The position numbers were made by a program, and so were the translations under genes. Under the pieces are notes generated by a model. The model was not told the DNA's origin. It saw only the letters and a program-made list of their open reading frames with translations, and did no database searches. A DNA stretch of 34,775 nt from Lachnospiraceae bacterium (lineage in GTDB: Bacteria > Bacillota > Clostridia > Lachnospirales > Lachnospiraceae), in the NCBI GenBank assembly GCA_024694965.1, contig JAILJC010000018.1:1-34775 (forward strand). The letters run 5' to 3'. Shown piece by piece: positions 285 through 18,150 of the stretch; position 1 is the first letter of the stretch, and each line of letters begins with the position of its first letter.

Positions 285-2936
285 TCACTTTAACTGACTT
301 TCAAGCACCGTAACGGCCTCCTTAAGTGCCGCATCTATTCCCGACGGATCCTTTCCTCCGGCCTGTGCCATATTGGGACGTCCGCCGCCGCCACCGCCTA
401 CCAGTGAAGCGATGCCTTTAATAAGGTTTCCGGCATGAGCACCCCTGCCCATAGCTCCGTCCGTTGCCATCGAAACCAGGTTGACTTTCCCGTCACTGTC
501 CGATGCAAGCAGGATGACACCGTCGCCCATCTTATCCTTAATCTGGTCGCCGAGTTCCCTCAAACCGTTCATATCCACACCCGGTACGCTTACCGCAAGG
601 AACTTTACACCGTTAACTTCGGTAACCTTATCCATCACATCACCCATTGCATCCTTGGCAGCCTTGCTCTTTAATGCATCAAGCTCGGATGTGAGTGACT
701 TTAGCTCGCCCTGAAGCTTTTCGATCTTATCCACTATGTCAAGGGAAGATGACTTAAGTGCCTTTGCCGCCTTCTCAAGAGTGTTCTCCACATCTTTATA
801 ATATGAAAGAACCCCGCTTCCCGTAAGACCCTCTATCCTTCTGACACCTGCCGCGATACCTGACTCTGACATTATCTTAAAGCAGCGGATATCTCCCGTT
901 GCCGCGACATGGGTACCGCCGCAAAGTTCCTTCGAAAAGTCACCCATCTTAACCACGCGCACCGTTTCACCGTATTTTTCGCCGAACAATGCCATGGCTC
1001 CCGATTTCATCGCATCATCAACCGACATTACATCTGTAATAACGGGAAGGTTTTCAACTATCTTTTCATTTACAAGAGCTTCAACCTTATCGGTTTCTTC
1101 CCGGGTAAGTGCCCTTGAGAATGAAAAGTCAAACCTCGTCCTTTCACCGTCCTGATATGAACCCTGCTGTTTAACCTCGTCACCCAGTACGGTCTGCAAT
1201 GCTTTCTGTAAAAGGTGAGTAGCAGAATGGTTCATGCAGGTCCTTTTTCTGTTATGAGGATCAACACTGAGCGTTACGGTATCACCTGTCTTAACCTTTC
1301 CGCTCTTTACGGTTCCCACGTGTCCGACCCTGTTTCCTTCTATCTTTACCGTATCCGTAACTTCAAATTCAAATGAGCCTGATCTTATCGTTCCGAAATC
1401 ACCCTTCTGTCCGCCCATTGTTGCGTAGAACGGAGTACTGTCGGTAATTATCGTGCAGGATATACCTTCGCCGGCTTCATCCAAAAGCTCGGTCGTGGCT
1501 ATGGCCGTAACCTTGCCTTCGTCAGTGATCTTTTCATATCCGGTAAACTGAGTGGTAAGGGATTCGTCAAGTTCCTTGAACACTTCGGGATCATTTGAAG
1601 TTTTTAACGAGAAGCTTGCATTGTCCCTTGCCTTCTGCTTCTGCTCTTCCATGGACTTTTTAAAGCCTTCCTCATCAACCCCAAGCCCCTTCTCTGCCGC
1701 CATCTCGACTGTAAGCTCGAGAGGGAACCCGAAAGTATCGTAAAGATAGAACGCATCCTTTCCGGAAATGCTCTTGCCCGAACCCTTAAGCGTCTGATCC
1801 TGGATCTTTATAAACTCCTTCATGCCGTTTTCAAGCGTTGCCGTGAAACGGTCGATCTCCTTCTTAAGCTCATTAAGAACAAACTCCCTGTTCTTAACAA
1901 GATTGGGATATGAATCGGAATAAACCTCGTCGATGAAAACCTTTGCGATCTCTATAAGCTGCTGCGTTGAAAGGCCAAGTATCCTTCCGTGCCTGACCGC
2001 GCGTCTTATGAGCCTTCGCAACACGTATCCGGCTCCTCCGTTTGAAGGTATAAGCCTTGCCTCATCACCTATGAGCATAACAGAGGTACGCAGATGATCG
2101 GAAAGCACCCTCATCGAACGGGTCTTATCATCTTCCGCATCATATTTAAAACCGGAAGCCTTTTCTATAAACGCTATAACAGATGAGAAAAGGTCTGTCT
2201 TATAAACATCCTTTGTACCGTTAAGGAATGCAAGGTTCCTCTCAAGTCCCCATCCCGTATCAACATTCTTTTTTGCAAGCGGTGTCAGATGTCCGTCCTT
2301 ATGCTTTTCATACTGCATGAACACATCGTTTCCAAGCTCTGTATACTTTCCGCATGAACAGCCGGGGCCGCATCCGGGACCGCAGTCCGGAACATCGGCT
2401 ATATAGAACATTTCGGAATCGGGACCGCAGGGCCCGTATTCTAGTCCCCACCAGTTGTCTTCCGCGGGAAGGTAATAAATATTCTCAGGCTTAAAACCGG
2501 AATCTATACGGCATTTTGCACCCTCTTCATCCCTGGGCGCGTTCTCGTCTCCCTCAAATACCGTTGCTGCAAGATGATCCCTGTCAAAGCCGAATACCCC
2601 GGTCAAAAGCTCATAACTCCACTTGCAGCGTTCCTCCTTGAAATAATCTCCAAGGCTCCAGCTTCCCATCATCTCAAAGAACGTCACATGCGATCTGTCG
2701 CCTACGGAATCTATATCGTTGGTCCTAACACAACCCTGCACATTACACAGCCTGACGCCCATGGGATGCTTCTGCCCAAGGAGATACGGCATTAACGGCT
2801 GCATGCCGGCAACGTTGAACATAACGCCCGTGGAACCGTCCGAAACAAGAGAAACGGCACCTACATCAACGTGACCCCTTTCCTTGTAGAACTCCTTCCA
2901 TGTATTTCTTAATTCCTTAGATGTGTACTGTTTCAT
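285..2936 (-). CDS. alaS: Alanine--tRNA ligase
   Basis: Charges tRNA-Ala with alanine in the cytoplasm and hydrolyses mischarged tRNA. 883 residues, the normal length for bacterial AlaRS. Visible parts: class II catalytic domain from the N-terminus (FFEMMGSWSLGDYFK, residues 87-101); a cysteine cluster at about 185-195 (DCGPGCGPGCSCG) that probably binds metal; the editing domain with an HxxxH motif (HSATH) and a downstream CGGTH; and a C-terminal coiled/oligomerisation domain ending in a Gly-rich segment (GGGGGGRPNMAQAGG). AAGGAG lies 6 nt before the ATG. It follows asnA by 60 nt with no terminator or promoter seen, so asnA-alaS are probably one transcript. No T-box leader is visible. Confidence 0.97.
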   Translation of the reverse strand: MKQYTSKELRNTWKEFYKERGHVDVGAVSLVSDGSTGVMFNVAGMQPLMPYLLGQKHPMGVRLCNVQGCVRTNDIDSVGDRSHVTFFEMMGSWSLGDYFKEERCKWSYELLTGVFGFDRDHLAATVFEGDENAPRDEEGAKCRIDSGFKPENIYYLPAEDNWWGLEYGPCGPDSEMFYIADVPDCGPGCGPGCSCGKYTELGNDVFMQYEKHKDGHLTPLAKKNVDTGWGLERNLAFLNGTKDVYKTDLFSSVIAFIEKASGFKYDAEDDKTRSMRVLSDHLRTSVMLIGDEARLIPSNGGAGYVLRRLIRRAVRHGRILGLSTQQLIEIAKVFIDEVYSDSYPNLVKNREFVLNELKKEIDRFTATLENGMKEFIKIQDQTLKGSGKSISGKDAFYLYDTFGFPLELTVEMAAEKGLGVDEEGFKKSMEEQKQKARDNASFSLKTSNDPEVFKELDESLTTQFTGYEKITDEGKVTAIATTELLDEAGEGISCTIITDSTPFYATMGGQKGDFGTIRSGSFEFEVTDTVKIEGNRVGHVGTVKSGKVKTGDTVTLSVDPHNRKRTCMNHSATHLLQKALQTVLGDEVKQQGSYQDGERTRFDFSFSRALTREETDKVEALVNEKIVENLPVITDVMSVDDAMKSGAMALFGEKYGETVRVVKMGDFSKELCGGTHVAATGDIRCFKIMSESGIAAGVRRIEGLTGSGVLSYYKDVENTLEKAAKALKSSSLDIVDKIEKLQGELKSLTSELDALKSKAAKDAMGDVMDKVTEVNGVKFLAVSVPGVDMNGLRELGDQIKDKMGDGVILLASDSDGKVNLVSMATDGAMGRGAHAGNLIKGIASLVGGGGGGRPNMAQAGGKDPSGIDAALKEAVTVLESQLK

Positions 2937-2996: not shown

Positions 2997-4007
2997 TCAT
3001 AACAGATGTACGCCCTTTGCCTCCGCTTCCTCGATCACGCCTTCGGGCCATATGGAACTCTGCACTTCGCCTATATGCGCACGTCTCATAAAGAACATGC
3101 ATATCCTTGACTGTCCTATGCCGCCGCCTATCGTATAAGGAAGTTCCTTATCAAGTATCGCCTTCTGGAACGGCAGTTTTGCCCTTTCGGGACATCCGGC
3201 TTTGTCAAGCTGTATAGCGAGTGATTCTTCATCAACCCTGATCCCCATACTGGACAATTCAAAGCCCCTGCCAAGTATGGGATAATAAACTATGATATCA
3301 CCGTTTAATTCCCAGTCATCGTAATCGGGTGCACGTCCGTCGTGCTTCTCACCCGACTTAAGAAGGTCGCCTATCTTCATAAGAAAGATCGCGCCGTACT
3401 CCTTTGATGCAAGGTCTTCCCTCTCCTTAGGAGTTTTATCCGGCCACCTGTCCTCAAGCTCCTGGGTCGTTATGAAAGTGATCTCATCGGGAAGTATCCT
3501 TGTGATCTCTGGATGCCTCGAATTAACGAAAACCTCTGTATTCTTGATCGCCTCATACACCTTGCGAACTATGGCTTTAAGTGTATCCTCGTTCCTTTCG
3601 TCCTTGTTTATGATACGTTCCCAGTCCCACTGGTCCACATACAATGAATGCAGGTTGTCCGTATCCTCATCCCTTCTTATCGCGGTCATATCGGTATATA
3701 AGCCTTCTCCGTGGAAAAATCCGTATTTTTTCAGTGCCATCCTCTTCCACTTGGCAAGGGAATGCACTATCTCAACCTCCTTGTCACCCTGTTCCTTAAT
3801 ACCGAAAGTTACCGGGCGCTCGACTCCGTTTAAGTTATCGTTAAGTCCGGATTCAGGCCATACGAACAAAGGTGCCGATACACGTGTAAGGTTAAGTTCC
3901 TTGGCCAGTGCTCTCTCAAAATAATCCTTTACTTCCTTTATAAGTACTTCAGTCTCTTTTATCGATTGCGGGCTCCTGTAACCCTCGGGAATAAATAATC
4001 CGTTCAT
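2997..4007 (-). CDS. asnA: Aspartate--ammonia ligase (asparagine synthetase A)
   Basis: Makes asparagine from aspartate, ammonia and ATP (AMP-forming); structurally related to class II aminoacyl-tRNA synthetases. 336 residues, close to the usual 330. The N-terminal FIPEGYRSP segment, the [20 protein letters not shown] region, the DQWDWE segment and the C-terminal [14 protein letters not shown] (catalytic-core Arg motif) are typical of AsnA. AAGGAG sits 6 nt before the ATG. It is transcribed from its own promoter and is followed by alaS, so two translation-supply enzymes share a unit. No T-box or other long leader: the predicted 5' UTR is only about 35-40 nt. Confidence 0.96.
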
Positions 4008-4086: not shown

Positions 4087-4263
4087 TCACATCTGATGGC
4101 GCACCACCTTATACTCGTCCCCGTTCTGGTAATACGGACATCCTTTAAAATCACGCTCCATCAGCCTTGCGTAATCATCCTCGTCTATATCCATATCACA
4201 GATATAATCGTCATATTCCTCATCATAAAAATAATATGCACAGGTATCGCAGCTGTTACTCAT
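4087..4263 (-). CDS. Small cysteine-containing protein (DUF6472-like), function unknown
   Basis: 58 residues, starting MSNSCDTCAYYFYDEEYDDY. It has CxxC at residues 5-8 plus Cys22 and Cys42 (the latter in GCPYY), so four cysteines that could hold one zinc ion or form a thiol site. It is very acidic and tyrosine-rich in the first 30 residues and ends in YKVVRHQM. I recognise the pattern from small clostridial proteins of the DUF6472 type; this family name is from memory. A strong GAGGAGG lies 5 nt before the ATG, and the start is 9 nt past the stop of the ABC subunit gene, so it is the last gene of that operon. It was missed by ordinary ORF length cut-offs. Plus-strand ORFs across this stretch are shadows. 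Confidence 0.85.
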   Translation of the reverse strand: MSNSCDTCAYYFYDEEYDDYICDMDIDEDDYARLMERDFKGCPYYQNGDEYKVVRHQM

Positions 4264-4272
4264 TTTGCCTCC

Positions 4273-6015
4273 TCAAACAAACTGGCTGTTGTATAGTTCG
4301 TAGTAGAATCCCTTCTTTTTAAGCAGTGAACCGTGGCTTCCCTGCTCTATTATATTTCCTTCCTTCATGACCAGGATAAGGTCCGCATTTTTTATCGTTG
4401 ATAAACGGTGGGCGACTATGAAAGAGGTGCGCCCCTCCATCATCTTAAGGAAGGCATCCTGAATCTTTAACTCGGTTCTTGTATCAATTGATGAAGTAGC
4501 CTCGTCAAGTATTAGCATGGGCGGGAGGGCCATCATTACCCTTGTTATGCACAAAAGCTGCTTCTGTCCCTGAGAAAGGCTTCCGCCCTCTTCTCCAATG
4601 ACAGTGTCGTAACCGTCCTTTAAGCGGCGTATGAACGAATGCGAGTGCACTTCCTTTGCGGCTTTTATCATTTCCTCATCCGAAATGTCACGGCCCATCT
4701 TTAAGTTATCCCTTATCGTACCGTGCCTTAACCAGGTATCCTGCAGTACCATCCCGTATGAATTCCGAAGGCTTAGGCGGGTCATCGACCTTATATCCTT
4801 TCCGTCAACATTTATGCTTCCCGCATCAGCATCATAAAACCTCATAAGCAGGTTGATGACGGTTGTCTTGCCGCATCCTGTCGGACCTACGATCGCAACA
4901 TGATCACCGGGTTTAACATCTATGTTAAGGTTCTTTATAAGGCTCTTTTCCTTATCGTATGAAAAATCAACCGCCCTGCATTCCACATGCCCCGATACGT
5001 TATCTGCCGGCTGTTTAGCAGCAGGTGCATCATCACATTCCTCCTTCTCATCCATAAGCTCAAACACCCTTGCCGCACAGGCAAGTGCATTCTGCAGCTC
5101 GGTCAGGACGCCGGATATCTCGTTAAAGGGCTTGGTATACTGATTCGCATAGCTTAAAAAGCTTGCAAGTATCCCGACTGTCATTCCCCCGGAAAGGACA
5201 TTTATCGCACCGAAAAGAGCAACAAACGCATATACGACACTGTTTACAAACCTCGTTCCCGGATTTGTCAGCGACGAATAAAAGATCGCCTTCCTGGAAG
5301 CACCCTCGAGGCGCAGGTTTATCTCATCAAAACGTTCCATAGCTTTTTCTTCATATGAAAAGGCCTTTACCGTTTTTAAGTTTCCTATCATCTCATCGAT
5401 AAGTCCTGTCTGCTTACCCCTTATGCCGGACTGTGCGCCGAACATGTCATATGTATGTTTTGATATGAACCTCGCAACGAATAACGACAAAGGCGTAACG
5501 AACACCACGATAAGCGTGATCAGCGGATTCATCATAAACATAAATCCCAATGTTATAAGGATCGTCACAACGCCGGTAAACAGCTGGCTAAAGCCCATTA
5601 AAAGACCGTCGGCAAGCTGGTCGACATCAGCTGTTATCCTGCTTAAAATGTCGCCTGTGGGATGTGGATCAAGATAATCAAACGGAAGCCTGTGGAGCTT
5701 TAAGAATGCTTCGTTGCGCATGTCCCTTACGATACTGAATGTAAGCCTGTTATTTATCTCATTCATAAGCCATAAGGACAGGCCCGAAACCGCCATGGAA
5801 ATAACTGCGTTAAGAAGGATGAAACCCATCTTCCCATAGTCGGTTGCGCCGTAAACGATACAGTCGATCGCGCGCCCTATAAGGATCGGCACATACAATC
5901 CGGCTGATACGTTTAACAAAGCAAGGACAAGTGACAGTGCCGCCAATGTCCTGTATCGCCCGACATATCCCGTTATTCTCTTTACCGTTTTCTTCCTGTC
6001 AGTTTTCACTTTCAT
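4273..6015 (-). CDS. ABC exporter subunit with canonical Walker B/H-loop (heterodimer partner B)
   Basis: 580-residue half-transporter: six-helix membrane domain (about 25-310) followed by a nucleotide-binding domain (about 345-580). Walker A GPTGCGKT 377-384, Walker B MLILDE with catalytic Glu505, and H-loop His536 (IVAHR) are all intact. The signature motif is altered: LSQGQ (480-484) in place of LSGGQ. This altered signature is the hallmark of one subunit of asymmetric heterodimeric exporters of the TM287/288, BmrCD and LmrCD type, and its partner gene lies immediately upstream with a 4-bp ATGA overlap. Substrate is unknown; drugs, lipids or peptides are all possible. No peptidase C39 domain is present, so it is not a classical bacteriocin exporter. 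Confidence 0.93.
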   Translation of the reverse strand: MKVKTDRKKTVKRITGYVGRYRTLAALSLVLALLNVSAGLYVPILIGRAIDCIVYGATDYGKMGFILLNAVISMAVSGLSLWLMNEINNRLTFSIVRDMRNEAFLKLHRLPFDYLDPHPTGDILSRITADVDQLADGLLMGFSQLFTGVVTILITLGFMFMMNPLITLIVVFVTPLSLFVARFISKHTYDMFGAQSGIRGKQTGLIDEMIGNLKTVKAFSYEEKAMERFDEINLRLEGASRKAIFYSSLTNPGTRFVNSVVYAFVALFGAINVLSGGMTVGILASFLSYANQYTKPFNEISGVLTELQNALACAARVFELMDEKEECDDAPAAKQPADNVSGHVECRAVDFSYDKEKSLIKNLNIDVKPGDHVAIVGPTGCGKTTVINLLMRFYDADAGSINVDGKDIRSMTRLSLRNSYGMVLQDTWLRHGTIRDNLKMGRDISDEEMIKAAKEVHSHSFIRRLKDGYDTVIGEEGGSLSQGQKQLLCITRVMMALPPMLILDEATSSIDTRTELKIQDAFLKMMEGRTSFIVAHRLSTIKNADLILVMKEGNIIEQGSHGSLLKKKGFYYELYNSQFV

Positions 6016-7736
6016 CCCTCATGAAAGACAGAATCATATATCTCGCGGTAAACGCCGCAATCCTCAAGCAGCTCCTCATGCGTTCCGATACCCGCTATAC
6101 ATCCGTCCTCTAACACTACTATCCTGTCTGCATTCTGTACAGAAGAAGTACGCTGAGAAACAATGAACACGGTAGGATCGTAATCAAGTCCGCCGATTCC
6201 CTTCCTCAGTTTAAGGTCAGTCATGTTATCAAGAGCCGATGCAGAATCATCAAGTATCAGTATCCCGGGCTTTCGCACAAGAGCCCTTGCTATAGTGAGC
6301 CTCTGTTTCTGGCCACCGGATAAGTTTTTCCCCCCGGGCTCTATCATGCCGTCAAGACCTCCCTTTAGCTTTACGACATCCTCGCATACGGCAAGCCTTA
6401 CAGCCTCATTAAGCTCTTCATCACCGGCTTCCTCATTACCCAGCCTTAAATTTTCGGCTATGCTTCCCTCAAACAGAACTGCCTTCTGGGGTACCACGCC
6501 GATCATATTCCTTAATTCCTTAACGTCATAATCCCTTACATCCTTTCCGAACACCTTCACGCATCCGGAAGTCACGTCATAAAAGCGCGGGATAAGATTT
6601 ACCACCGATGATTTACCCGAACCTGTGCCGCCTATTATCCCAATGGTCTCTCCCTTCTTAACAGACAGATTTATATCGGTAAGAGCTTCGTCTCCGGTCT
6701 CACTGTACTTAAGTCCCACATGATAGAATCCTACGCTCTCTGCGGAAGCATCCTGAGGCTTATCACCTGCGCTCCTGCCTCCTTCTTCTATTGCCGGGGT
6801 TATCTTAAATACCTCATATATCCTGTCAGAGCTTGCGGCAGCCTTATTAAGCAGTACGATAAGATTGGCAAGCTTTATAAGTTCGACAAGTATCTGTGAC
6901 ATATAATTATACAGTGCGACTACCTGTCCTTTGGTAAGTATGCCTGCATCCACCTTGACGGCCCCGGTATAGATGAGCACAACTATCGCAAGGTTGATGA
7001 TAACAAATGTAGCGGGATTAAGGAGTGCCGAAAGATGTCCCGCCTTCTGCTGGCGGCTGTACAGTTCATCATTTGCACTGCCATATCCCTTTATCTCACT
7101 TTCTTCAAGTGTGAATGCCCTTATGACCCTAGCACCCGTAAGGTTTTCACGAGTCAGCAGGGTTATCCTGTCAAGCTTTTCCTGTACCGTTTTAAGAAGG
7201 GGGATGTTAAAATACATGACCGCTCCGACCACGGCAAAAAGTACTGCGATCACTACGACGAAGATCAGTGCCGCACGCACATTTATAGTAAACGCCATTA
7301 TCATCGCTCCGAAAACGATAAACGGTGAACGCAAAAAAAGACGCAGGAACATATTTACTCCTGTCTGCGCCTGGTTAACATCATTTGTCATCCTGGTTAT
7401 CATTGTGGAAGCGCCAAGCTCATCGATGTTTTTATATGACAGGCTGATGATGTGCTTAAACAGATCATGCCTTAAGCCGGTGGCAAATCCGACAGCGGCC
7501 CTGGCCGCCATATACTGAGCACTCACCGCACTTATAAGTCCCACGGCTCCAAGTGTTATCATGACCACGCAGCACTTAATGACATGTGCCTTATCGCCGC
7601 CTGCAATACCCTTGTCTATTATGCTTGCGACAACAAGCGGAACGAAGAGTTCAAAGACAGCTTCAAGCATCTTAAACAACGGTGCAAGAACGCATTCTCT
7701 TTTATATGATTTAAGATACTTAAGAAGATGTCTCAA
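6012..7736 (-). CDS. ABC exporter subunit with degenerate catalytic residues (heterodimer partner A)
   Basis: 574 residues: membrane domain (about 15-300) and nucleotide-binding domain (about 335-574). Walker A GGTGSGKS 369-376 and signature LSGGQ 472-476 are normal. The residue after Walker B is Asp497 (ILILDD) instead of the catalytic Glu, and the H-loop histidine is replaced by Gln528 (IVSQR). Paired with the LSQGQ signature of the partner subunit, its Walker A/B would form the degenerate, weakly hydrolysing ATP site, while the partner's Walker A/B with this subunit's LSGGQ forms the active site. This is the known architecture of asymmetric exporters. Its start overlaps the stop of the upstream EAL gene by 4 bp and its stop overlaps the start of the partner gene by 4 bp. 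Confidence 0.93.
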   Translation of the reverse strand: MRHLLKYLKSYKRECVLAPLFKMLEAVFELFVPLVVASIIDKGIAGGDKAHVIKCCVVMITLGAVGLISAVSAQYMAARAAVGFATGLRHDLFKHIISLSYKNIDELGASTMITRMTNDVNQAQTGVNMFLRLFLRSPFIVFGAMIMAFTINVRAALIFVVVIAVLFAVVGAVMYFNIPLLKTVQEKLDRITLLTRENLTGARVIRAFTLEESEIKGYGSANDELYSRQQKAGHLSALLNPATFVIINLAIVVLIYTGAVKVDAGILTKGQVVALYNYMSQILVELIKLANLIVLLNKAAASSDRIYEVFKITPAIEEGGRSAGDKPQDASAESVGFYHVGLKYSETGDEALTDINLSVKKGETIGIIGGTGSGKSSVVNLIPRFYDVTSGCVKVFGKDVRDYDVKELRNMIGVVPQKAVLFEGSIAENLRLGNEEAGDEELNEAVRLAVCEDVVKLKGGLDGMIEPGGKNLSGGQKQRLTIARALVRKPGILILDDSASALDNMTDLKLRKGIGGLDYDPTVFIVSQRTSSVQNADRIVVLEDGCIAGIGTHEELLEDCGVYREIYDSVFHEG

Positions 7737-9688
7737 CGTTGCACCTGCTTCTGCATGAATTCGATAAAGCTCCTCTCAGGCAGCGGCCGGCAGAAATAAT
7801 AACCCTGCAGATATTCACAGCCCTGGATATAATCGGCACCGAGATCGGTGAATTTCTGAACGACCTTTTCCTCCTCAACACCCTCGACCAGCACCTTCTT
7901 ACCCATCTGCTTAAGCATCTTTATAGTTTCCTGTACCATGATGCACATCTGGGGATCATCTATTCCGTCAACAAACGTCTTATCAAGCTTCACTATCTCT
8001 ACGGGAAGCGTTGTAACACGTCTTACATTTGAATAACCCGTCCCGTAATCATCCAGTGAAAAACGGACACCTATATCGCTCAGCCTGTTTATGTTCTGAT
8101 CAACCACGTCAGGATCGAAATCAACAGCCGATTCCGTGATCTCAAGACTTAACATGGAGGGATTGAGCTTGTACTTTTTAAGAAGCCTTTCAACCTTTTC
8201 GACAAGGTTCATCTCAATACACTGGGAAGTTGACATGTTAACTTCAATACACTCAAGACCCAGACCTATAAAGTCGTTCATGGATATAAAGCGGCAAACG
8301 TCATCCAGGATAAAATCACCTATCGTATGTATGGCACCGCTTATCTCAGCCGCAGTTATAAAAAGTCCCGGCGATATCATGCCGTAAACCTCATCTCTCA
8401 TCCTGACAAAGGCCTCAGCCGCAACAAACCTCTTCTCGGTTATCGAATAGATCGGCTGATAATACATCTCAAAGCTCCTGCTCTTTATCGCACGGTCGAT
8501 GATATCGTCAAGCTGGCTCTTGATCTTGAAATCCCTCTCGTTTACGTAGTCGGGATAATGCATTACTTCCTTGGTTTCCGGAAGGATCATATGGAACGAG
8601 CTGCAGAAGGTATAGAGTGTATTGTAATTATCAATGTCCTCCGGACATCCCAAAATGCACAGACGTACGTCGGCAAGGACCGAAAAGTTCTTATGCATGA
8701 TCTTATCGAGAAAATGATCCCTTATCTTCTGTGCATAAAGCCTCATACTGTCATAATCGCCCGTTTCACTTATAAGAGCGAACAGTCCGTCATCAAGATA
8801 GTACAGTTCGTCTCCCACCGATGACTGTCTTGCAAGCTGCCTTAATATCTCGGACTGCTCCTTTAAGAAATCATTAAGCTGCTCCTGCCCCAAGTACATC
8901 CTGATATTCATGTAGTTAACGAACTTGATGAGCAGTATATTGGTAGGTATTCCCGTTGACAGTACTTTTTTGACATGCTCATGTGCCGCACTGTATTTGC
9001 GCGCTCCGGTCACGGGATCCAGCAGTTCCTCCTCGCGCCTTATGATAAGGCTGAACAAAAGTAACGCGATGGATATCATGAACATCTCAATAAGATGATT
9101 GGGAAGCACCGCCTGAATACCTATACCCAGTGCCGATATAGGGAACAGAAGGACCATTACGATAAGCTTGTCACGCTTTATTATGGCCCTGAATTTATGA
9201 AGTATACCGATCTCATATATCATATATGAGACAGCGATAATGTAGAATATGATGATTCCGGACCGGCGCTGGTACTCCGCATTCTCTGTAACGTAAAACA
9301 CCCACGGATATGCGACATTCGAAAGAAGTACGACCGCATTTACCACCATCCCGGCTATCCACAGTCTCTTTAAGAGCTTGTTACGTACAAACTCATGCCA
9401 CATACCGATGTTCGAAAAGATAAACGGCAGATATACCGGAAGGATCAGGTTGTGGGTTCCGAAATATATATACTGCCACATGTATTCAGTGGTCCTGCTA
9501 ACCTCACCTGTAACACCCTGGTTCTGAATATAAGCCCCGAAAAAATCCGAAACGGAAGAAGCCATCATCATAAAAAGGAGCAGATAAAACAATCCGTTGG
9601 TCCTTCCGTGGTACATCTTCTTTAACAGGCAGGATAACAAAACCAGCGATATGATAAGGATGGCACATATGTCATAATACACTATCAT
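7733..9688 (-). CDS. Membrane EAL-domain protein (putative c-di-GMP phosphodiesterase) with catalytic-loop duplication
   Basis: 651 residues. Residues 1-216 contain about seven hydrophobic helices, 225-370 a degenerate GGDEF-like domain (YLDDGLFAL where GGDEF should be), 395-651 an EAL domain. EAL catalytic residues seem present: Glu425 (motif reads EAF, not EAL), Asn484, Glu516, Asp546/Asp547 (DDYGTGYSN), Lys567, Glu602. The usual DYxQGYYF stretch carries an extra six residues: GADYIQ (617-622) is followed by GCEYLQ (623-628) and GYYF, so the conserved Gln occurs twice. It is a paralogue of the next gene upstream, with the same length and layout. Starts and stops overlap both neighbours by 4 bp. 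Likely to degrade or sense c-di-GMP at the membrane; activity is uncertain given the insertion. Confidence 0.9.
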   Translation of the reverse strand: MIVYYDICAILIISLVLLSCLLKKMYHGRTNGLFYLLLFMMMASSVSDFFGAYIQNQGVTGEVSRTTEYMWQYIYFGTHNLILPVYLPFIFSNIGMWHEFVRNKLLKRLWIAGMVVNAVVLLSNVAYPWVFYVTENAEYQRRSGIIIFYIIAVSYMIYEIGILHKFRAIIKRDKLIVMVLLFPISALGIGIQAVLPNHLIEMFMISIALLLFSLIIRREEELLDPVTGARKYSAAHEHVKKVLSTGIPTNILLIKFVNYMNIRMYLGQEQLNDFLKEQSEILRQLARQSSVGDELYYLDDGLFALISETGDYDSMRLYAQKIRDHFLDKIMHKNFSVLADVRLCILGCPEDIDNYNTLYTFCSSFHMILPETKEVMHYPDYVNERDFKIKSQLDDIIDRAIKSRSFEMYYQPIYSITEKRFVAAEAFVRMRDEVYGMISPGLFITAAEISGAIHTIGDFILDDVCRFISMNDFIGLGLECIEVNMSTSQCIEMNLVEKVERLLKKYKLNPSMLSLEITESAVDFDPDVVDQNINRLSDIGVRFSLDDYGTGYSNVRRVTTLPVEIVKLDKTFVDGIDDPQMCIMVQETIKMLKQMGKKVLVEGVEEEKVVQKFTDLGADYIQGCEYLQGYYFCRPLPERSFIEFMQKQVQR

Positions 9689-11640
9689 AGATGCGATACC
9701 CTCCCGGAATTATGCTCGTTTACGAATTTAATGAATTCGGCCTGTTCAAGGGGCTTGGAAAAATAGAAGCCCTGTATATAATCACAGCCAAGATCTATGA
9801 AGCGGTCAAGCGTGCGCTTATCCTCGACACCCTCGACCAGTATCTTCTTGTTCATCCTCTTTAACATGTTCACGGTATTTACAATGGCTATCCACATCTT
9901 TGGATCGTCCATCTCATCAACAAAGCTCTTGTCAAACTTGACTATGTCAAACGGAAGCGATACGACCCTCTTGATATTAGAATATCCGGTACCGTAATCA
10001 TCAAGCGAAAACTTATATCCCATATTCCAGAGCCTGAAGATGTTTTCATCAGTGATCTTCGGATCATAATCAGCAGCCGTCTCGGTTATCTCAAGGTTTA
10101 TCTGCGATGGCTTTACACTGTATTTATCGGCAAGGCCTTTTATCTTGTCGGTGAGCCCCGGCTCGATGCACTGCGCTACCGAAAGGTTTATCTCGATATA
10201 CTTAAGTCCGCTTCCGGCAAAATCACCCCTGCGTATAAACCTTATAACATCCTCCAGGACAAAATCACCTATATCATGTATGGCGCCGCTGTTCTCTGCC
10301 GCAGGTATGAACAATGCGGGGGATATATATCCGTACTCCTCGTCAAACAGCCTTATGAGTGCTTCTCCCGAAACGAACTTATCATCTTTAACCGAATATA
10401 TCGGCTGATAGAACATGCGGAAACTGTTCTCTTCTATGCCTCTCTTTATTATATTATCTATCTCGCTCTTCATCCTGTAATCCTGGGAATCAAGGATCTC
10501 GGACAGGATGATGATCTTGTCCATCGGGGGGATCGTCCTGTGGAACATGTTAACAAAACTCATCAGCGAACTGTACGACTGGATATCATTGGGGGTCCTT
10601 GCAAGACACACCTTGGCATCAAGACGTATCTCAAGGTTGTTTATCGTAAAGCTTTCCTTCATATACGAAACAACAAGCCGTCCCATATCGAGTGTCTGAT
10701 CATACTTGTCCGCTTCCGTAACTATCGCAAAAACACCCCTTCCGTTGTAGTAAACATCGGTGTAGAGGTTGATTATCTTTCCCATCTGGATAAACTTGGC
10801 CCCCGTCCTCTGCAGGGCTGCATTGTAGATTTCAAGTCCAAGGTTAAGCCTTAAGGCTCTATGATTGGTTATCTTGACAAGGAGTAAGTTTGTAGGACGT
10901 CCTACAGCGTATGCCCGCCGCATGTCAATGAAGAATCCGTTCTGGCTCAAAGTGCCCACAACGGCATCAACAACTTCTTCAGGACGCTGTATGGCAGTTG
11001 CCGTCATGAATATGGTAAGTGCAAGGGCAAGTACCTCAACCCTCATTTCGGGCTTGATACGCTGGGCAATAACTGCGATCATATTAAATACGCCAAACGA
11101 AAGCAGCATCAGGAATTCCGCCTTGCGTACCGTATTTCTGTAATGTATGGTGATCGAAAAGATGACTGTTAAATAAATTGCCGCTATAACATAGATTATT
11201 ACGATGGCGGGGCCCCTGTGATATACGCCCCCGGCATCAACATAAAATATTAGGGGATGGAAACAGTTAACGATCATACCGATCGTCATTACCGTATAAG
11301 GAACAACCACAACCCAGAAATGAATGCCCTTGTTTTTTAAAAGATACCACACCCCGAAATACGAATACAGGAACAAAAGATATGCGGGAGTAGTAAGGTT
11401 CCTTATCAGATAAAAAAAGGTATTTGAAACAAACTGAACCGTCGCATTTGACGGAAGCTGTTCGACATAAGTACCGAACAGGCTGTCATATACATCCAAA
11501 AGACCCGATATGATCACCAATGCCGCGATAAGCAGTATGAGGCGGTTGGTACGTCCCTTTGTATACCTGCGTATAACCAGGTACAAAAGCACGGTAAGCG
11601 CCAGCACTATCGCACATATATCGAAATTAATAATACGCAT
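9685..11640 (-). CDS. Membrane EAL-domain protein (c-di-GMP phosphodiesterase)
   Basis: 651 residues with the same plan as its downstream neighbour: about seven hydrophobic helices (1-216), a degenerate GGDEF-like domain (225-375; YNGRGVFAI at the active-site position, so no cyclase activity expected), then EAL (397-651). The EAL signature is complete: Glu426-Ala-Leu, Asn485, Glu517, Asp547/Asp548 in DDYGTGYSN, Lys568, Glu603, Gln623 in GCDYIQGFYF. This is therefore the more likely active phosphodiesterase of the pair. GGAG lies 8 nt before the ATG, 11 nt past the stop of the GGDEF gene. The membrane part could sense an external or membrane signal; no known ligand-binding motif is apparent to me. 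Confidence 0.92.
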   Translation of the reverse strand: MRIINFDICAIVLALTVLLYLVIRRYTKGRTNRLILLIAALVIISGLLDVYDSLFGTYVEQLPSNATVQFVSNTFFYLIRNLTTPAYLLFLYSYFGVWYLLKNKGIHFWVVVVPYTVMTIGMIVNCFHPLIFYVDAGGVYHRGPAIVIIYVIAAIYLTVIFSITIHYRNTVRKAEFLMLLSFGVFNMIAVIAQRIKPEMRVEVLALALTIFMTATAIQRPEEVVDAVVGTLSQNGFFIDMRRAYAVGRPTNLLLVKITNHRALRLNLGLEIYNAALQRTGAKFIQMGKIINLYTDVYYNGRGVFAIVTEADKYDQTLDMGRLVVSYMKESFTINNLEIRLDAKVCLARTPNDIQSYSSLMSFVNMFHRTIPPMDKIIILSEILDSQDYRMKSEIDNIIKRGIEENSFRMFYQPIYSVKDDKFVSGEALIRLFDEEYGYISPALFIPAAENSGAIHDIGDFVLEDVIRFIRRGDFAGSGLKYIEINLSVAQCIEPGLTDKIKGLADKYSVKPSQINLEITETAADYDPKITDENIFRLWNMGYKFSLDDYGTGYSNIKRVVSLPFDIVKFDKSFVDEMDDPKMWIAIVNTVNMLKRMNKKILVEGVEDKRTLDRFIDLGCDYIQGFYFSKPLEQAEFIKFVNEHNSGRVSHL

Positions 11641-11651
11641 TTTACACTCCG

Positions 11652-13982
11652 TTAGCCTTTTTCGTCTTTGATGCGCAGGCTTCCTTTGGGGGTTAAACGC
11701 GGTTCCACGGCCCGTACCGCCGAACCTATAAGCCCCGATATATCAGATCCCTTATCGCATATGAATTCATATGCTTCGAGAGACATTTCAACATCAAAAG
11801 GATCCACGGAAGATCCGTTGTATTTCTCAAGCCTTCCGTTGACCGAATTCCTTATATTCTCAATCATATCATATTTATCGCAAAGTATCACGGAAATAAA
11901 TTCATCGTCACCTATGCGCCCGACGGGATTTTCCTCTCCCATAACGGTACTGAGTTCGCATGCCACTGCTTTTAAAGCCCTGTCGCCCGCTTCATGACCG
12001 TACTGTCCGTTGATCTTGCTTAAATAGCTCACATCGGCGAGTATGATATAAGCTTTCCGTCCGGCATTCTTTGAAATGATCGAAGCAAGGCGCTTTACAA
12101 ATCCGCAGCCGTTAAGTATACCTGTAAGATCGTCCCGCTCCGAAACATAATCAAGTACGTTTTCCGTCTCCTTAAGCTGCTCGATCGCATCCTGCGCCAT
12201 ATAACTCATATCCCTGAAATTAAACAGAGCGCCGATCTGCAGGGTACACATCATGGCAAAGAATATATCTTTTTTATCGATCTCATATAAGATGATACCG
12301 TACTGCCTGTTGCCCGAACATATGACAAATGCGGAATAATTGGCAAGCTCAGACGAATCAAGGACCGAACTTATACCGTTTTCCGTGTCAATATTTATTC
12401 CGTTCTGCCTAAGATAAACATTAAGGCCGTTTTTATCAAAACGTCCGGCGTAATGTATGGATGCGGGCTTCGGCGGAAGCTGGCCCGCCCTGTATACGAC
12501 CGGCTTGTGGAAGATAAATATATGCGCCGAGGCAACATTCATTCCGCGAAGCCTCCGCATTATATACGTGATAACATCAACTTCGGTTTTATTCGTCTCC
12601 AGAAGATCCTTCGTAAACAGGGGGATGAACCACAGCTGTTCCTTCCTCTGGTTTCCGACATCACGCATATGTGCGATCTCAGCCTCTTTAAGATGCTTCA
12701 TCGCATCTATCATTATGGATGTAAGCTTAGCCCTTTCCCTTCCGTGCGGGATCATATACATAATGTCTTCAAGTATCATGGTGGTCTTCTCTGTCACCAT
12801 CCTGTTTGAAATATACTTAAACTCAGTCAGCCGCATAATATGATCGGCAACAGCAGCGATCGTATCGTCAATATCCTCATACGGCGTTGTCAGCCTTGAA
12901 AGGATAAACGTAAACATTTCGGAATAAGCCCTCGCGAACTCGAACTTCTCACTTTCATACGGAAGGAAAGAAAAAATATCATTAACGGCAGCCGTCGTGT
13001 TTTTATCGAGATAACCCTTAACCTTAGCCAATACGGTGCCATCGGTTTTGCCGGGAACATTCTTTATACGGCCCGGAGTCCTTTTGTTTACACATCCGCA
13101 TGAACTGCGTTTTACCATTTTACATGGTATTTTTGAACCGCCTATCTTTAAGCCCTTTGCTATCTTAATGGCCTTCTTTACCGCCTCGCTCCCGAAGCCG
13201 TAGCTGTCATACATTACGCCCGTAAGTCCCGGAGTCATCGGATGTGAAAGCCCAAGGTCATCAAACCCTGTCACCGCAAGATCCTTGCCGATGACTATAC
13301 CCCTCTTGTTGCATGCCCTGTAAACGATCCTTGCATAAGAATCACAGCTGCAGACAAGCGCATCCATGTACGGAAAATCATCAAAGACCGCATTGATCCT
13401 GCGCTCTTCGTTATCTATCGAATCGCAGATGACGATCTGGTCAGACGTATATGTGAGTGCGTGCGCGTTCATGGTATCCTTGAAGGCACGCAGCCTTTCC
13501 TTGAAATCATATTCTTCCGGGTCACCCGAAACATATACGAGGAATGTACATCCGTGATCCACTATAAGATGCTCGACGCATTCGCACATCGCCTGATAGC
13601 TGTCTGCAACCTGATATGCTATGGACGGTTTTCCGGGAACCGTCTCAAGCACCAGCATGGGAATGTCCCTGTAGCGTTCGGTAAGTGCATTGATATCCGG
13701 AAGGATCCTCGAGCGTTTCATTGATCCGCTGACTATGATAAGAGAATCGGGCTTAATAAGTTCCGCATAATCAAACACAGAATCCAGCTGGTCGACATAC
13801 TCGCTGTCTATATCGTCACCCGTATAATACATCTCCTCTCCGGGGGACTGCGGCCCGAGAAGATACACCAGGTTTATGTTCTCTTCCCTGGCAGTATCAT
13901 ACATTCCGCTGTACATCGCCTCCGAAAAATCGGAATTTACATCGCGCATCATTACCGCGATCGTCATCCTTTTATCATCCAT
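11652..13982 (-). CDS. LacI-type ligand-binding domain fused to GGDEF domain (atypical GDDEF site)
   Basis: 776 residues. Residues about 5-290 look like a LacI/periplasmic-binding-protein-like sensor domain (TIAVMMRDVNSDFSEAMYSG at the start; VTGFDDLGLSHPMTPGLTGV at 237-256, a typical LacI-family segment), followed by an SCGC motif at 294-297. There is no helix-turn-helix, signal peptide or membrane helix, so it should be cytoplasmic. Residues 300-600 are helical/GAF-like linker of unclear fold. The C-terminus (610-776) is GGDEF-type: DDLTGILN, metal Asp650, nucleotide-binding Asn658 and Asp667 (YGHEAGD) kept, but the signature is RIGDDEF (689-695), second Gly replaced by Asp, and the usual DxD..K positions are altered. 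Cyclase activity is therefore uncertain. First gene after rimM, 18 nt away, with GAGAGG upstream of the ATG. Confidence 0.9.
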   Translation of the reverse strand: MDDKRMTIAVMMRDVNSDFSEAMYSGMYDTAREENINLVYLLGPQSPGEEMYYTGDDIDSEYVDQLDSVFDYAELIKPDSLIIVSGSMKRSRILPDINALTERYRDIPMLVLETVPGKPSIAYQVADSYQAMCECVEHLIVDHGCTFLVYVSGDPEEYDFKERLRAFKDTMNAHALTYTSDQIVICDSIDNEERRINAVFDDFPYMDALVCSCDSYARIVYRACNKRGIVIGKDLAVTGFDDLGLSHPMTPGLTGVMYDSYGFGSEAVKKAIKIAKGLKIGGSKIPCKMVKRSSCGCVNKRTPGRIKNVPGKTDGTVLAKVKGYLDKNTTAAVNDIFSFLPYESEKFEFARAYSEMFTFILSRLTTPYEDIDDTIAAVADHIMRLTEFKYISNRMVTEKTTMILEDIMYMIPHGRERAKLTSIMIDAMKHLKEAEIAHMRDVGNQRKEQLWFIPLFTKDLLETNKTEVDVITYIMRRLRGMNVASAHIFIFHKPVVYRAGQLPPKPASIHYAGRFDKNGLNVYLRQNGINIDTENGISSVLDSSELANYSAFVICSGNRQYGIILYEIDKKDIFFAMMCTLQIGALFNFRDMSYMAQDAIEQLKETENVLDYVSERDDLTGILNGCGFVKRLASIISKNAGRKAYIILADVSYLSKINGQYGHEAGDRALKAVACELSTVMGEENPVGRIGDDEFISVILCDKYDMIENIRNSVNGRLEKYNGSSVDPFDVEMSLEAYEFICDKGSDISGLIGSAVRAVEPRLTPKGSLRIKDEKG

Positions 13983-14000
13983 AACAACATATCCTCTCGC

Positions 14001-14504
14001 TTACAGCCCTTTAAGCACATGTACCTTCATAACGTTGTCTGCCGTATCTACCGACAGAATGCACTGCTTAATGGCAGGAAGGAGCAGTTCATCCCCTTCA
14101 TCGCGTTTTATAACATAAACATCATTGGCACCGGTTTCCATGACATCCTTAAGCTCACCTATCCTGCCTCCTTCTTCATCAACAACTTCCATCCCGATAA
14201 GATCGGCGATAAAGTATTCATCGGCACTTAGCTTAACGGCATTTTCCCTTGTCACATAGATACTCCTGCCCTTGTATTTTTCAATATCATTTATACTGTC
14301 ATAATCTTTAAACTTGACTATCACAAACTGCTTAAAAAACTTAACCCCTTCGATCGTAAGATCGATGAATCCGCTGCCGCTGTCCAAAAGCACGTTTTTA
14401 AGTTTTTTAAACCTCTTTGCATCATCTGTTGTCGGAAATACTTTCATCTCCCCGTGGACACCGTGTGTCGAACTGAGTATCCCGACCTGAAGCTTATCTT
14501 CCAT
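14001..14504 (-). CDS. rimM: Ribosome maturation factor RimM
   Basis: 16S rRNA processing factor that binds ribosomal protein S19 and helps 30S head maturation. I choose the ATG at 14502-14504 (MEDKLQVGILSSTHGVHGEM), giving 167 residues: AAGGGG lies 6 nt upstream, and the region before it holds the promoter, so the longer reading frame beginning at 14531 would start at or before the transcript's 5' end. N-terminal RimM barrel (THGVHGEMKVFPTTDD) and C-terminal PRC-barrel (IADLIGMEVVDEEGGRIGEL) are both visible. It is separated from khpA by a terminator and followed by the sensor-GGDEF gene instead of the usual trmD-rplS. Confidence 0.95.
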   Translation of the reverse strand: MEDKLQVGILSSTHGVHGEMKVFPTTDDAKRFKKLKNVLLDSGSGFIDLTIEGVKFFKQFVIVKFKDYDSINDIEKYKGRSIYVTRENAVKLSADEYFIADLIGMEVVDEEGGRIGELKDVMETGANDVYVIKRDEGDELLLPAIKQCILSVDTADNVMKVHVLKGL

Positions 14505-14535
14505 ATCCATCCCCTTAAAACAGACCATCACTTAT

Positions 14536-14564
14536 ACTATAACATTTATTGGATGTGATTTAAA
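14536..14564 (-). promoter_or_regulatory. Promoter of rimM and the c-di-GMP/ABC exporter genes
   Basis: Minus-strand TTTAAA (14559-14564), 17-bp spacer, TATAGT (14536-14541) with an extended -10 (TGTTATAGT). It begins just after the T-tract of the khpA terminator, so it restarts transcription for rimM and the six genes behind it. The -35 is weak (4/6); the extended -10 makes the call reasonable. Confidence 0.7.
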
Positions 14565-14565
14565 G

Positions 14566-14596
14566 AAAAAAAGGTCACGGGATTAAACCCGTGACC
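14566..14596 (-). terminator. Rho-independent terminator after khpA
   Basis: Minus strand: a perfect 9-bp stem GGTCACGGG / CCCGTGACC (arms at 14588-14596 and 14573-14581) with a 6-nt loop, followed by seven T. It lies 7 nt past the khpA stop codon. It ends the ylxM-ffh-rpsP-khpA transcript and insulates rimM. Confidence 0.92.
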
Positions 14597-14603
14597 CTTC
14601 AGA

Positions 14604-16938: not shown

Positions 16939-18150
16939 CTATATACTCGTGCGCACGATCTTGGGAAGATATTTACCGTCGGTAAGCGCATCTATTATCT
17001 GCTTCTTATGCTCGGTACCGAAAGCTTCAAGCGTTATCCTGAGTTCAACTGCGGCATTTCGGTTTGTCGATACGAACTGGTTGTGTTCGAGCTTTATTAC
17101 ATTTCCGTTCTGCTCCGCAATAAGAGCGGCCACCCTCGAGAGCTCTCCCGGCTTATCGGGAAGCAGTACCGATACGGTAAATATCCTGTCACGCATTATA
17201 AGTCCCTGCTGAACAACCGAAGACATGGTTATAACATCCATGTTTCCTCCGCTTAATATCGATACTATCTTTTTCCCTTTATCTTTAAGCTGCTTTAGAG
17301 CGGCCACAGTCAGCAGTCCCGAGTTTTCGACCACCATCTTGTGATTCTCTACCATATCAAGGAAGGAGACTATTATATCCTCATCGGGAACAGTAATGAT
17401 ATCATCGAGATTCTTCTGTACATAAGGGAAGATCTTTGCGCCCGGAGTTTTTACGGCAGTACCGTCGGCTATTGTATTAACACCGTCAAGAGTCACAACC
17501 TTGCCCGCCTCTATAGACGCCTTCATACACGCAGCCCCTGCGGGCTCAACGCCTATAACCTTTATCTTGGGATTCATAAGCTTTGCAAGTGTGGATACGC
17601 CTGCTGCCAGTCCGCCTCCTCCGATCGGTACAAGTATGTAATCAACAAGCGGAAGTTCCTTGAATATCTCCATCGCGATGGTTCCCTGCCCCGTGGCTAC
17701 CGCGGGATCGTCGAACGGATGGATGAAGGTATAGCCGTTTTCCTTTGCAAGGCGCAGAGCCTCAGTGCAGGCTTCGTCATAAACATCTCCGAACAATATG
17801 ACCTGGGCACCGTAATTCTTGGTCCTGTTTACCTTAATAAGGGGAGTTGTGGTCGGCATTACGATGACAGCCTTGCATCCGTACTCCTTTGCCGCATAGG
17901 CAACGCCCTGGGCATGATTACCGGCAGAGGCTGTAATGATGCCGCGCGACCTTTCGTCTTCGCTTAAGGTGCTCATCTTATAATATGCACCCCTTAACTT
18001 ATATGCGCCGGTCATCTGCATGTTCTCGGGCTTTAAATATACCTTGTTTCCTGTAAGCCTGCTTAAGTAACTGCTGTAAACAAGCTTTGTCTCAAGTGTG
18101 ACTTTTTTTACAAGTTCGCTCGCTTCCTCAAATTTCTCAAGTGTTAACAT
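16939..18150 (-). CDS. ilvA: Threonine ammonia-lyase with C-terminal ACT domain
   Basis: PLP enzyme turning threonine into 2-oxobutanoate and ammonia, first step to isoleucine or of threonine breakdown. Start chosen at ATG 18148-18150 (MLTLEKFEEASELV): GGAGG lies 6 nt upstream, inside the end of ftsY, so the genes overlap by 14 nt. 403 residues. PLP lysine Lys51 in MTGAYKLRGA, SAGNHAQG at 75-82, phosphate-binding GGGGLAAG 177-184, ACT regulatory domain 323-403 (PDKPGELSRVAALIAEQNGN). This is the short one-ACT type. The biosynthetic and catabolic roles cannot be separated from sequence alone; ilvA is the usual label. Being last in the SMC/FtsY operon is unusual for an amino-acid enzyme. Confidence 0.93.
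   Translation of the reverse strand: MLTLEKFEEASELVKKVTLETKLVYSSYLSRLTGNKVYLKPENMQMTGAYKLRGAYYKMSTLSEDERSRGIITASAGNHAQGVAYAAKEYGCKAVIVMPTTTPLIKVNRTKNYGAQVILFGDVYDEACTEALRLAKENGYTFIHPFDDPAVATGQGTIAMEIFKELPLVDYILVPIGGGGLAAGVSTLAKLMNPKIKVIGVEPAGAACMKASIEAGKVVTLDGVNTIADGTAVKTPGAKIFPYVQKNLDDIITVPDEDIIVSFLDMVENHKMVVENSGLLTVAALKQLKDKGKKIVSILSGGNMDVITMSSVVQQGLIMRDRIFTVSVLLPDKPGELSRVAALIAEQNGNVIKLEHNQFVSTNRNAAVELRITLEAFGTEHKKQIIDALTDGKYLPKIVRTSI

Follow-up and report, generated by a model that had tools for sequence, protein, structure and literature searches.

An intracellular LacI-type sensor, c-di-GMP enzymes and an asymmetric heterodimeric exporter in one probable operon of a Lachnospiraceae clade

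Introduction

The phosphodiesterases of cyclic di-GMP (c-di-GMP) with GGDEF and EAL domains are represented by PA0575 (PDB 5m3c), MorA (4rnh), DosP, BifA and DibA, and the heterodimeric ATP-binding cassette (ABC) exporters by TM287/288 (PDB 3qf4) and PDB 9x46 A/B. Here we analyse a locus in which relatives of both kinds stand side by side, together with a LacI-type sensor protein. It consists of six adjacent genes on a stretch of 34,775 nt from a Lachnospiraceae bacterium (GenBank assembly GCA_024694965.1, contig JAILJC010000018.1, positions 1 to 34,775), which is called the window below.

An ABC exporter also has a role in the Lap system. There, as the excerpted literature has it, a c-di-GMP receptor acts together with an exported product (LapD-LapG and export of the adhesin LapA). 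According to a passage of PMC3431978, LapD is a receptor without enzymatic activity, and in Caulobacter CC3396 a degenerate GGDEF domain binds GTP and activates the EAL domain. Periplas_BP, a domain found in LacI regulators, is named among the sensory domains of c-di-GMP proteins in an excerpt of PMC8846402. We found no paper on a gene set like the present one in the literature searched, where c-di-GMP signalling of such Lachnospiraceae seems little described, as judged from titles and the starts of abstracts.

Results

Gene order and its conservation

The six open reading frames (ORFs), all on the minus strand, have the order, coordinates and junctions given in the original prediction. In transcription order they are:

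11652-13982, minus strand: LacI-GGDEF, 776 aa; LacI effector-binding fold, middle region and degenerate GGDEF domain (GDDEF); Pfam Peripla_BP_3 and GGDEF
9685-11640, minus strand: EAL1, 651 aa; membrane part, GGDEF-like domain without signature, EAL domain with intact catalytic residues; Pfam EAL
7733-9688, minus strand: EAL2, 651 aa; tandem paralogue of EAL1 that has the catalytic residues; Pfam EAL
6012-7736, minus strand: ABC1, 574 aa, TTG start; half-exporter with LSGGQ and Walker B LDD; Pfam ABC_membrane and ABC_tran
4273-6015, minus strand: ABC2, 580 aa; half-exporter with LSQGQ and Walker B LDE; Pfam ABC_membrane and ABC_tran
4087-4263, minus strand: DUF6472 protein, 58 aa with four Cys; PF20076, E 2.6e-26

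The junctions in the window are 11 nt, -4, -4, -4 and 9 nt (negative values are overlaps). For the comparison among genomes, LacI-GGDEF, EAL1 and EAL2 were treated as module A, and ABC1-ABC2-DUF6472, which continues to asnA-alaS, as module B. Gene order was compared by BLAST with the window proteins in stretches fetched around EAL1, DUF6472 and rimM matches, and the same-genus set comprised 37 genomes (the window's own and 36 further). Modules A and B form one block in 12 of the 37, the window's own included. These are species-level genomes (G000, G017, G003, G027, G023, G035, G021, G036, G026, G012, G009 and G032), in five of which (G035, G021, G036, G032 and G026) the block was viewed across contig breaks.

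The gene that follows rimM is module A in all 12 block genomes and a same-strand trmD in all 25 others. EAL1-EAL2 lies beside the exporter in every one of the 12, with full-length EAL1 identity down to 63%, and LacI-GGDEF is missing only from G012 (present in 11/12). In G023 and G026 rimM is still attached to the block though khpA is not upstream in the fetched stretch; rimM and block there adjoin other genes, and an assembly error is possible. In a tree of four markers (ffh, rimM, rpsP and khpA), the 12 block genomes form one clade, for whose node no support value is printed and in which G023 and G026 are placed by rimM alone. Since all 12 fall in one clade, the two modules were most likely joined once.

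We propose that rimM leads an operon in which a ligand-gated module for c-di-GMP degradation is expressed together with a heterodimeric exporter of general type, and judge the chances of this reading to be even. The same history could be one of hitchhiking, in which module A came to lie by chance behind rimM and near the exporter cluster, and co-transcription is tolerated without regulatory meaning. The single origin and the housekeeping flanks agree with hitchhiking, and so does the window's own genome, which is rich in GGDEF (40, some in one protein) and EAL (16) matches. Relatives of the EAL pair also adjoin unrelated housekeeping genes elsewhere, where the exporter is absent: polC, purB-purA-aspS-DUF4317 or, in Treponema, dUTPase-LptF-LptG-Tgt (one locus each of the purB and Treponema types was run through Pfam, the others were judged by ORF sizes). 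Chance placement accords less well with an EAL pair that has stayed beside the exporter in 12/12 clade members while EAL1 diverged to 63% identity, with a rimM that is still attached in G023 and G026, and with a sensor gone only from G012. We consider hitchhiking somewhat unlikely. Some benefit of co-expressing the module with the exporter is plausible, because the two do lie side by side, most likely through a single event, and have stayed so.

The exporter pair and its link to module A

ABC1 and ABC2 are adjacent half-transporters with ABC_membrane and ABC_tran domains and resemble PDB 9x46 and 3qf4 in A/B order (E-values for ABC1 and ABC2: 2.8e-130 and 4.6e-161 to 9x46; 5.6e-129 and 1.2e-146 to 3qf4). 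ABC1 combines LSGGQ with LDD, in which Asp replaces the catalytic Glu, and ABC2 combines LSQGQ with LDE, in which the Glu is kept. Aligned to 9x46 and 3qf4 (the printed ABC2 alignments are to 9x46 and 9x4a), the pair thus has one degenerate and one consensus catalytic site, as expected of a heterodimeric exporter of the ABCB type. TM287/288 and 9x46 show the same asymmetry, with Asp for Glu on the ABC1 side only and LSQGQ on the ABC2 side; unlike them, ABC1-ABC2 is here joined to c-di-GMP genes and a DUF6472 gene. The locus also differs from the Lap system in that its EAL domains look active, with intact residues, and its exporter is a heterodimeric half-transporter pair; Pfam shows no protease among the six proteins.

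The exporter is found widely without module A. ABC1-ABC2-DUF6472 stand together in 17 of the 25 non-block same-genus genomes, with no BLAST match to module A in the fetched stretch, which in some of them ends near the exporter genes; asnA-alaS lie beyond DUF6472 in 12 of these 17. The arrangement was not seen in the fetched stretches of the other eight, three of which (G002, G031 and G034) gave no DUF6472 match. In a sample of the family, all of 250 genomes (249 genera) have an ABC1 match (E <= 0.001, paralogues included), the best among those listed with 50-65% identity over nearly the full length. ABC2 directly follows ABC1 in 29/29 best other-genus loci, in which BLAST found no module A match within about 1.5 kb upstream (L321 shows no upstream gene). 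Because ABC1 matches occur throughout the family and ABC2 follows in 29/29 loci without a module A match, ABC1-ABC2 is, by these sequence matches, an old and general gene pair of Lachnospiraceae.

That the exporter's cargo might be the 58-aa peptide itself was considered and rejected, since this protein belongs to DUF6472, which is also found beside no such exporter (L141, L142, L144, L147 and L150, two of them on short contigs). In G003 the row DUF6472-asnA-alaS occurs a second time, on a separate contig (L137:2308-3623), possibly by contamination or strain mixture.

Some exporter loci have further gene neighbours. In G021 and G036, ABC1 and ABC2 are separated by a canonical FHA-GGDEF gene (RWGGDEF) that shares 4 nt with ABC2 (L039:8147-9097, L139:1-774). 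G005 and G007 have a row made up of a typA-like gene, two genes for another ABC exporter (37-41% identical) and a gene for a GGDEF-EAL protein (L066:1690-9121, L067:1612-9227; L067 was judged by size and BLAST only). G026 has a two-domain LigB-AMMECR1 gene (L138:6390-7835) directly upstream of ABC2, at the expected place of ABC1, and the contig ends there.

The stop-start overlaps of the original prediction exist in the window and are only partly conserved. EAL1/EAL2 is joined by -4 in 7 of 11 measurable block genomes, by +2 in two and by about +4 after start trimming in two. For EAL2/ABC1, -4 occurs in only three of 12 (G000, G017 and G003); in four the genes are 4 to 29 nt apart, and in five a zf_Tbcl gene comes between them. 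ABC1/ABC2 spacing is variable, with -4 in the window and, before start trimming, only in G012. A zf_Tbcl-like gene also precedes ABC1 in genomes without module A (G016, G019 and G024), so the zf_Tbcl gene goes with the exporter. The idea that the six genes form a dedicated cassette whose coupling is conserved was rejected in view of the varying junctions, the zf_Tbcl gene in 5/12 and the separate occurrence of the modules. What stands is an adjacency of two modules, kept in 12/37 genomes. The original prediction would have been given up if the modules were independent and their adjacency unique to this genome; both do stand apart elsewhere, and the adjacency recurs in 12 genomes.

The same data bear on the claim that c-di-GMP turnover is dedicated to the exporter. 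They do not support it: the exporter occurs without a module A match in 17/25 same-genus genomes and 29 other-genus loci, and EAL1-EAL2 occurs without the exporter. The reading that the c-di-GMP genes serve to control this exporter or its cargo, through local c-di-GMP acting on the exporter or an exported product, is quite improbable in our view. It gains from the adjacency kept in 12 species-level genomes, from the FHA-GGDEF gene inside the pair in G021 and G036 and from the different ABC pair followed by a GGDEF-EAL gene in G005 and G007. It loses from the same separate occurrences of exporter and EAL pair, from the EAL2/ABC1 junction, overlapping in 3/12 only and interrupted by zf_Tbcl in 5/12, and from the unrelated LigB-AMMECR1 gene in G026; Pfam shows no c-di-GMP-binding domain on ABC1 or ABC2.

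The tandem pair EAL1-EAL2

EAL1 and EAL2 are 37% identical. In addition to the EAL domain, each has a membrane part at its N-terminus and, in the middle, a GGDEF-like domain that lacks the signature. The predicted structure of EAL2 (mean predicted local distance difference test (pLDDT) score 85, predicted template modelling (pTM) score 0.58) has a helical N-terminal part followed by the GGDEF-like and EAL domains, and its best folds are the GGDEF-EAL proteins PA0575, MorA and DosP. These three, BifA and DibA are the best family, sequence or fold matches of EAL1/EAL2, which like them have the EAL catalytic residues. Unlike them, EAL1 and EAL2 fall well short of the curated equivalog cut-offs in score, lack the signature in the GGDEF-like domain and are two distinct paralogues kept in tandem.

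Adjacent EAL genes were compared in the window and at 33 other loci. In 29 pairs the EAL1-type gene lies upstream and the EAL2-type gene downstream, with a spacing of -38 to +10 nt; 10 are from the block clade (window included), 12 from other Lachnospiraceae and seven from Treponema. The five remaining pairs (L052, L056, L062, L256 and L263) are of more distant types. The EAL positions E, N, E, D, D, K, E and Q, conserved residues with metal-binding and catalytic roles, are all eight present in 29/29 EAL1-type proteins, and each is present in 27-29 of the 29 EAL2-type proteins.

In the tree, the EAL2 sequences group in a single lineage (support 0.97), as do the Lachnospiraceae EAL1 sequences (0.89), and the inner branching of the two looks alike by eye. 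A larger EAL set comprised 174 ORFs, 146 after removal of duplicates, and the window's two. In it, an EAL1-type gene, whole or partial, lies directly upstream in 32 of the 33 members of the EAL2 lineage, the other (L071) being at a contig end; lone EAL2 genes could be missed, because loci were gathered mainly with EAL1. A search with EAL2 of 392 genomes of the order gave at least 44% identity in two (the window's own and G258), both paired. As far as alignments and tree tell, EAL1 and EAL2 are a tandem pair of old origin and fixed order, and both members retain their catalytic residues, which is a new finding. Both proteins are probably active c-di-GMP phosphodiesterases and probably act as one heteromer.

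A second, distant type of tandem EAL pair (L052:8758-12623, similar among L053-L064) occurs in many genomes without the block; in L052 it is surrounded by TelA, HDOD and PriA genes. The same locus encodes an 860-aa protein in which 4Fe-4S and iron-only hydrogenase large-subunit domains are fused to GGDEF-EAL (L052:2274-4856). It might be a c-di-GMP protein that senses hydrogen or redox state, and EAL1-matching ORFs of similar size occur in the same neighbourhood in L053-L058, L060, L062 and L063.

The LacI-GGDEF sensor

In the predicted structure of LacI-GGDEF (mean pLDDT 83, pTM 0.65), the first 300 residues form a LacI effector-binding fold, and the best fold matches are RbsR and LacI. A role as transcription factor was rejected for lack of an N-terminal DNA-binding helix-turn-helix (HTH): Pfam shows no HTH family, and the first strand of the binding fold already begins at residue 7.

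The C-terminal domain matches the GGDEF profile well (PF00990, 63.2 bits vs a cut-off of 23.8). All 11 genomes with the gene have GDDEF in place of the GG(D/E)EF signature, and the SxG and AD..LY motifs are missing from all 11 sequences. C-terminal SxG and AD..LY motifs are usual in active GGDEF domains, and GGDEF, SxG and AD..LY are kept in 9/9 same-genus paralogues examined (22-25% identity, of those fetched). The GGDEF domain of the sensor is thus degenerate clade-wide and canonical in same-genus paralogues, a new finding at the level of motifs, and it is probably a pseudo-cyclase. The spelling GDDEF turned up in four papers of the literature searched, and in passages of two of them, PMC3431978 and PMC7314104, it looks like a misprint of GGDEF.

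The view of this locus as one of c-di-GMP turnover is therefore doubtful, given the pseudo-cyclase features of the sensor's GGDEF domain. With two predicted phosphodiesterases and no clear cyclase, module A would be a c-di-GMP sink. The sensor has the same domain type as Periplas_BP-GGDEF one-component proteins, with a GGDEF domain that is degenerate in its orthologues. It is like CC3396, which we take to be PdeA, in that a degenerate GGDEF domain may be an allosteric part of a phosphodiesterase, as the excerpted account of CC3396 describes. Unlike in CC3396, one degenerate GGDEF domain here sits on the separate LacI-sensor protein, so that its action in trans can only be hypothesized.

The transcription unit and rimM

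The flanks of the six genes include the following features:

14569-14600, minus strand: terminator-like stem-loop (13 pairs, T tail) in the khpA-rimM gap (terminator scan)
14536-14564, minus strand: promoter-like site before rimM, TTTAAA, 17 nt, TATAGT with TG (consensus match only)
14001-14531, minus strand: rimM; Pfam RimM/PRC, TIGR02273; probable first gene of the transcription unit
2997-4007, minus strand: asnA, next after DUF6472 with a 79-nt gap (family profiles)
285-2936, minus strand: alaS, like asnA part of the older ABC1-ABC2-DUF6472-asnA-alaS neighbourhood (family profiles)

khpA precedes rimM, rimM ends 18 nt upstream of LacI-GGDEF, and asnA and alaS lie downstream, all on one strand. 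Because rimM (18 nt upstream) and asnA (79 nt downstream) flank them on the same strand, the six genes are not a bounded set. In the scan of the window, every terminator-like site on this strand is either within a gene or ahead of rimM, and the scan found none in the intergenic gaps between rimM and asnA. Nine of the 10 block genomes with khpA upstream of rimM have a hairpin and T run between these two genes, and AT-rich TGnTAT stretches like the promoter-like site of the window were seen by eye in other block genomes. The promoter and terminator scan used consensus only, and promoter-like sites are in excess across the region (45 vs 26.4 expected). A start-trimming rule gave negative intergenic lengths, and that comparison was used only for the rimM-trmD order and for hairpins judged by eye. 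We conclude that the LacI sensor, the c-di-GMP enzymes and the exporter are in one probable operon.

rimM itself might be the relevant partner, the module tying the c-di-GMP level to ribosome assembly in a manner loosely like Pseudomonas RimABK, in which RimA and RimB regulate the ribosome-modifying RimK. rimM is upstream in 12/12 block genomes, including G023 and G026 where khpA is not, and an excerpt of PMC4741518 links RimK, RimA, RimB and c-di-GMP. The likeness is loose, since RimM is not RimK, and EAL1 and EAL2 reach only 63.7 and 52 bits against a cut-off of 430 for the RimA equivalog model. Outside the clade, EAL1-EAL2 is not beside rimM in the loci seen. We regard this explanation as very improbable.

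Proposed function

The proposal of a ligand-gated module in a rimM-led operon starts from the observed gene order, its conservation, the single origin in the tree, the kept and lost motifs and the tandem pairing. From these we infer enzyme activities, heteromer, gating, ligand, promoter and a functional tie to the exporter as follows. In the common ancestor of this Lachnospiraceae clade, a single insertion would have placed the c-di-GMP-lowering module A between rimM and the old exporter-asnA-alaS cluster, giving a rimM-led operon. The sensor would be a cytosolic LacI-type protein whose GGDEF domain has probably lost cyclase activity, and the effector the membrane-bound tandem EAL1-EAL2, probably as one heteromer. 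A small intracellular ligand may bind the LacI domain, the pseudo-GGDEF domain may contact the signature-less GGDEF-like domains of EAL1/EAL2, and ligand binding would thereby set the rate of c-di-GMP breakdown at the membrane. With the exporter and DUF6472 co-transcribed, phosphodiesterase, exporter and rimM would share one presumably growth-linked promoter.

Several observations weigh against parts of this proposal. Gating by LacI-GGDEF cannot be essential in G012, which lacks the gene and keeps EAL1-EAL2 with the exporter. Some GGDEF ligand residues survive in every LacI-GGDEF sequence, namely the first metal Asp, the Asn of IN, GD and DEF, so that residual cyclase activity or nucleotide binding is possible. 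Treponema EAL1 proteins have no settled position in the tree, and six of the 29 members of the EAL1 lineage have no adjacent EAL2 (one of them, L212, at a contig end); L037, of the same lineage, has its EAL2 partner on a different contig. Several non-block genomes (such as G001, G006, G014, G015 and G029) also show, by eye, a khpA-rimM hairpin, which is therefore not special to the block. Read-through into asnA is not general, because terminator-like hairpins precede asnA in G027 (hairpin and T run after DUF6472) and in G026 (weak hairpin after ygjP).

A bolder version, which we think unlikely, makes EAL1-EAL2 an obligate heteromeric membrane phosphodiesterase of Lachnospiraceae and Treponema, to which this clade would have added a dedicated sugar-type sensor acting in trans. 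Its former cyclase domain would now be a non-catalytic coupling part, and the rimM-led operon would link c-di-GMP removal to growth and export. An ordered tandem of two different EAL proteins, retained in two phyla, would offer a well-defined case for asking if EAL enzymes can act as obligate heteromers, and the LacI sensor with its clade-wide pseudo-cyclase would show how a cyclase domain can take on a coupling role. If the link to the exporter is real, it would point to a c-di-GMP output in these bacteria.

Other features of the window

The ORFs further upstream are presumably rpsP, ffh, ylxM, ftsY, smc, rnc, acpP and plsX, by their order and sequence; gene labels given without a family search come from BLAST against the window proteins or from sequence and order. 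Between ftsY and ylxM, the stretch 16939-18165 has BLAST matches at the same place in many same-genus genomes, and by eye we take it to resemble threonine ammonia-lyase. A known riboswitch in the window was rejected, Rfam giving no matches at gathering scores. The closest named relatives are uncultured Lachnospiraceae genomes, several labelled as rumen samples. The window's own genome is 88% complete in 228 contigs, and its trmD lies on two other contigs (C113 and C169) at identical coordinates, probably through redundant assembly.

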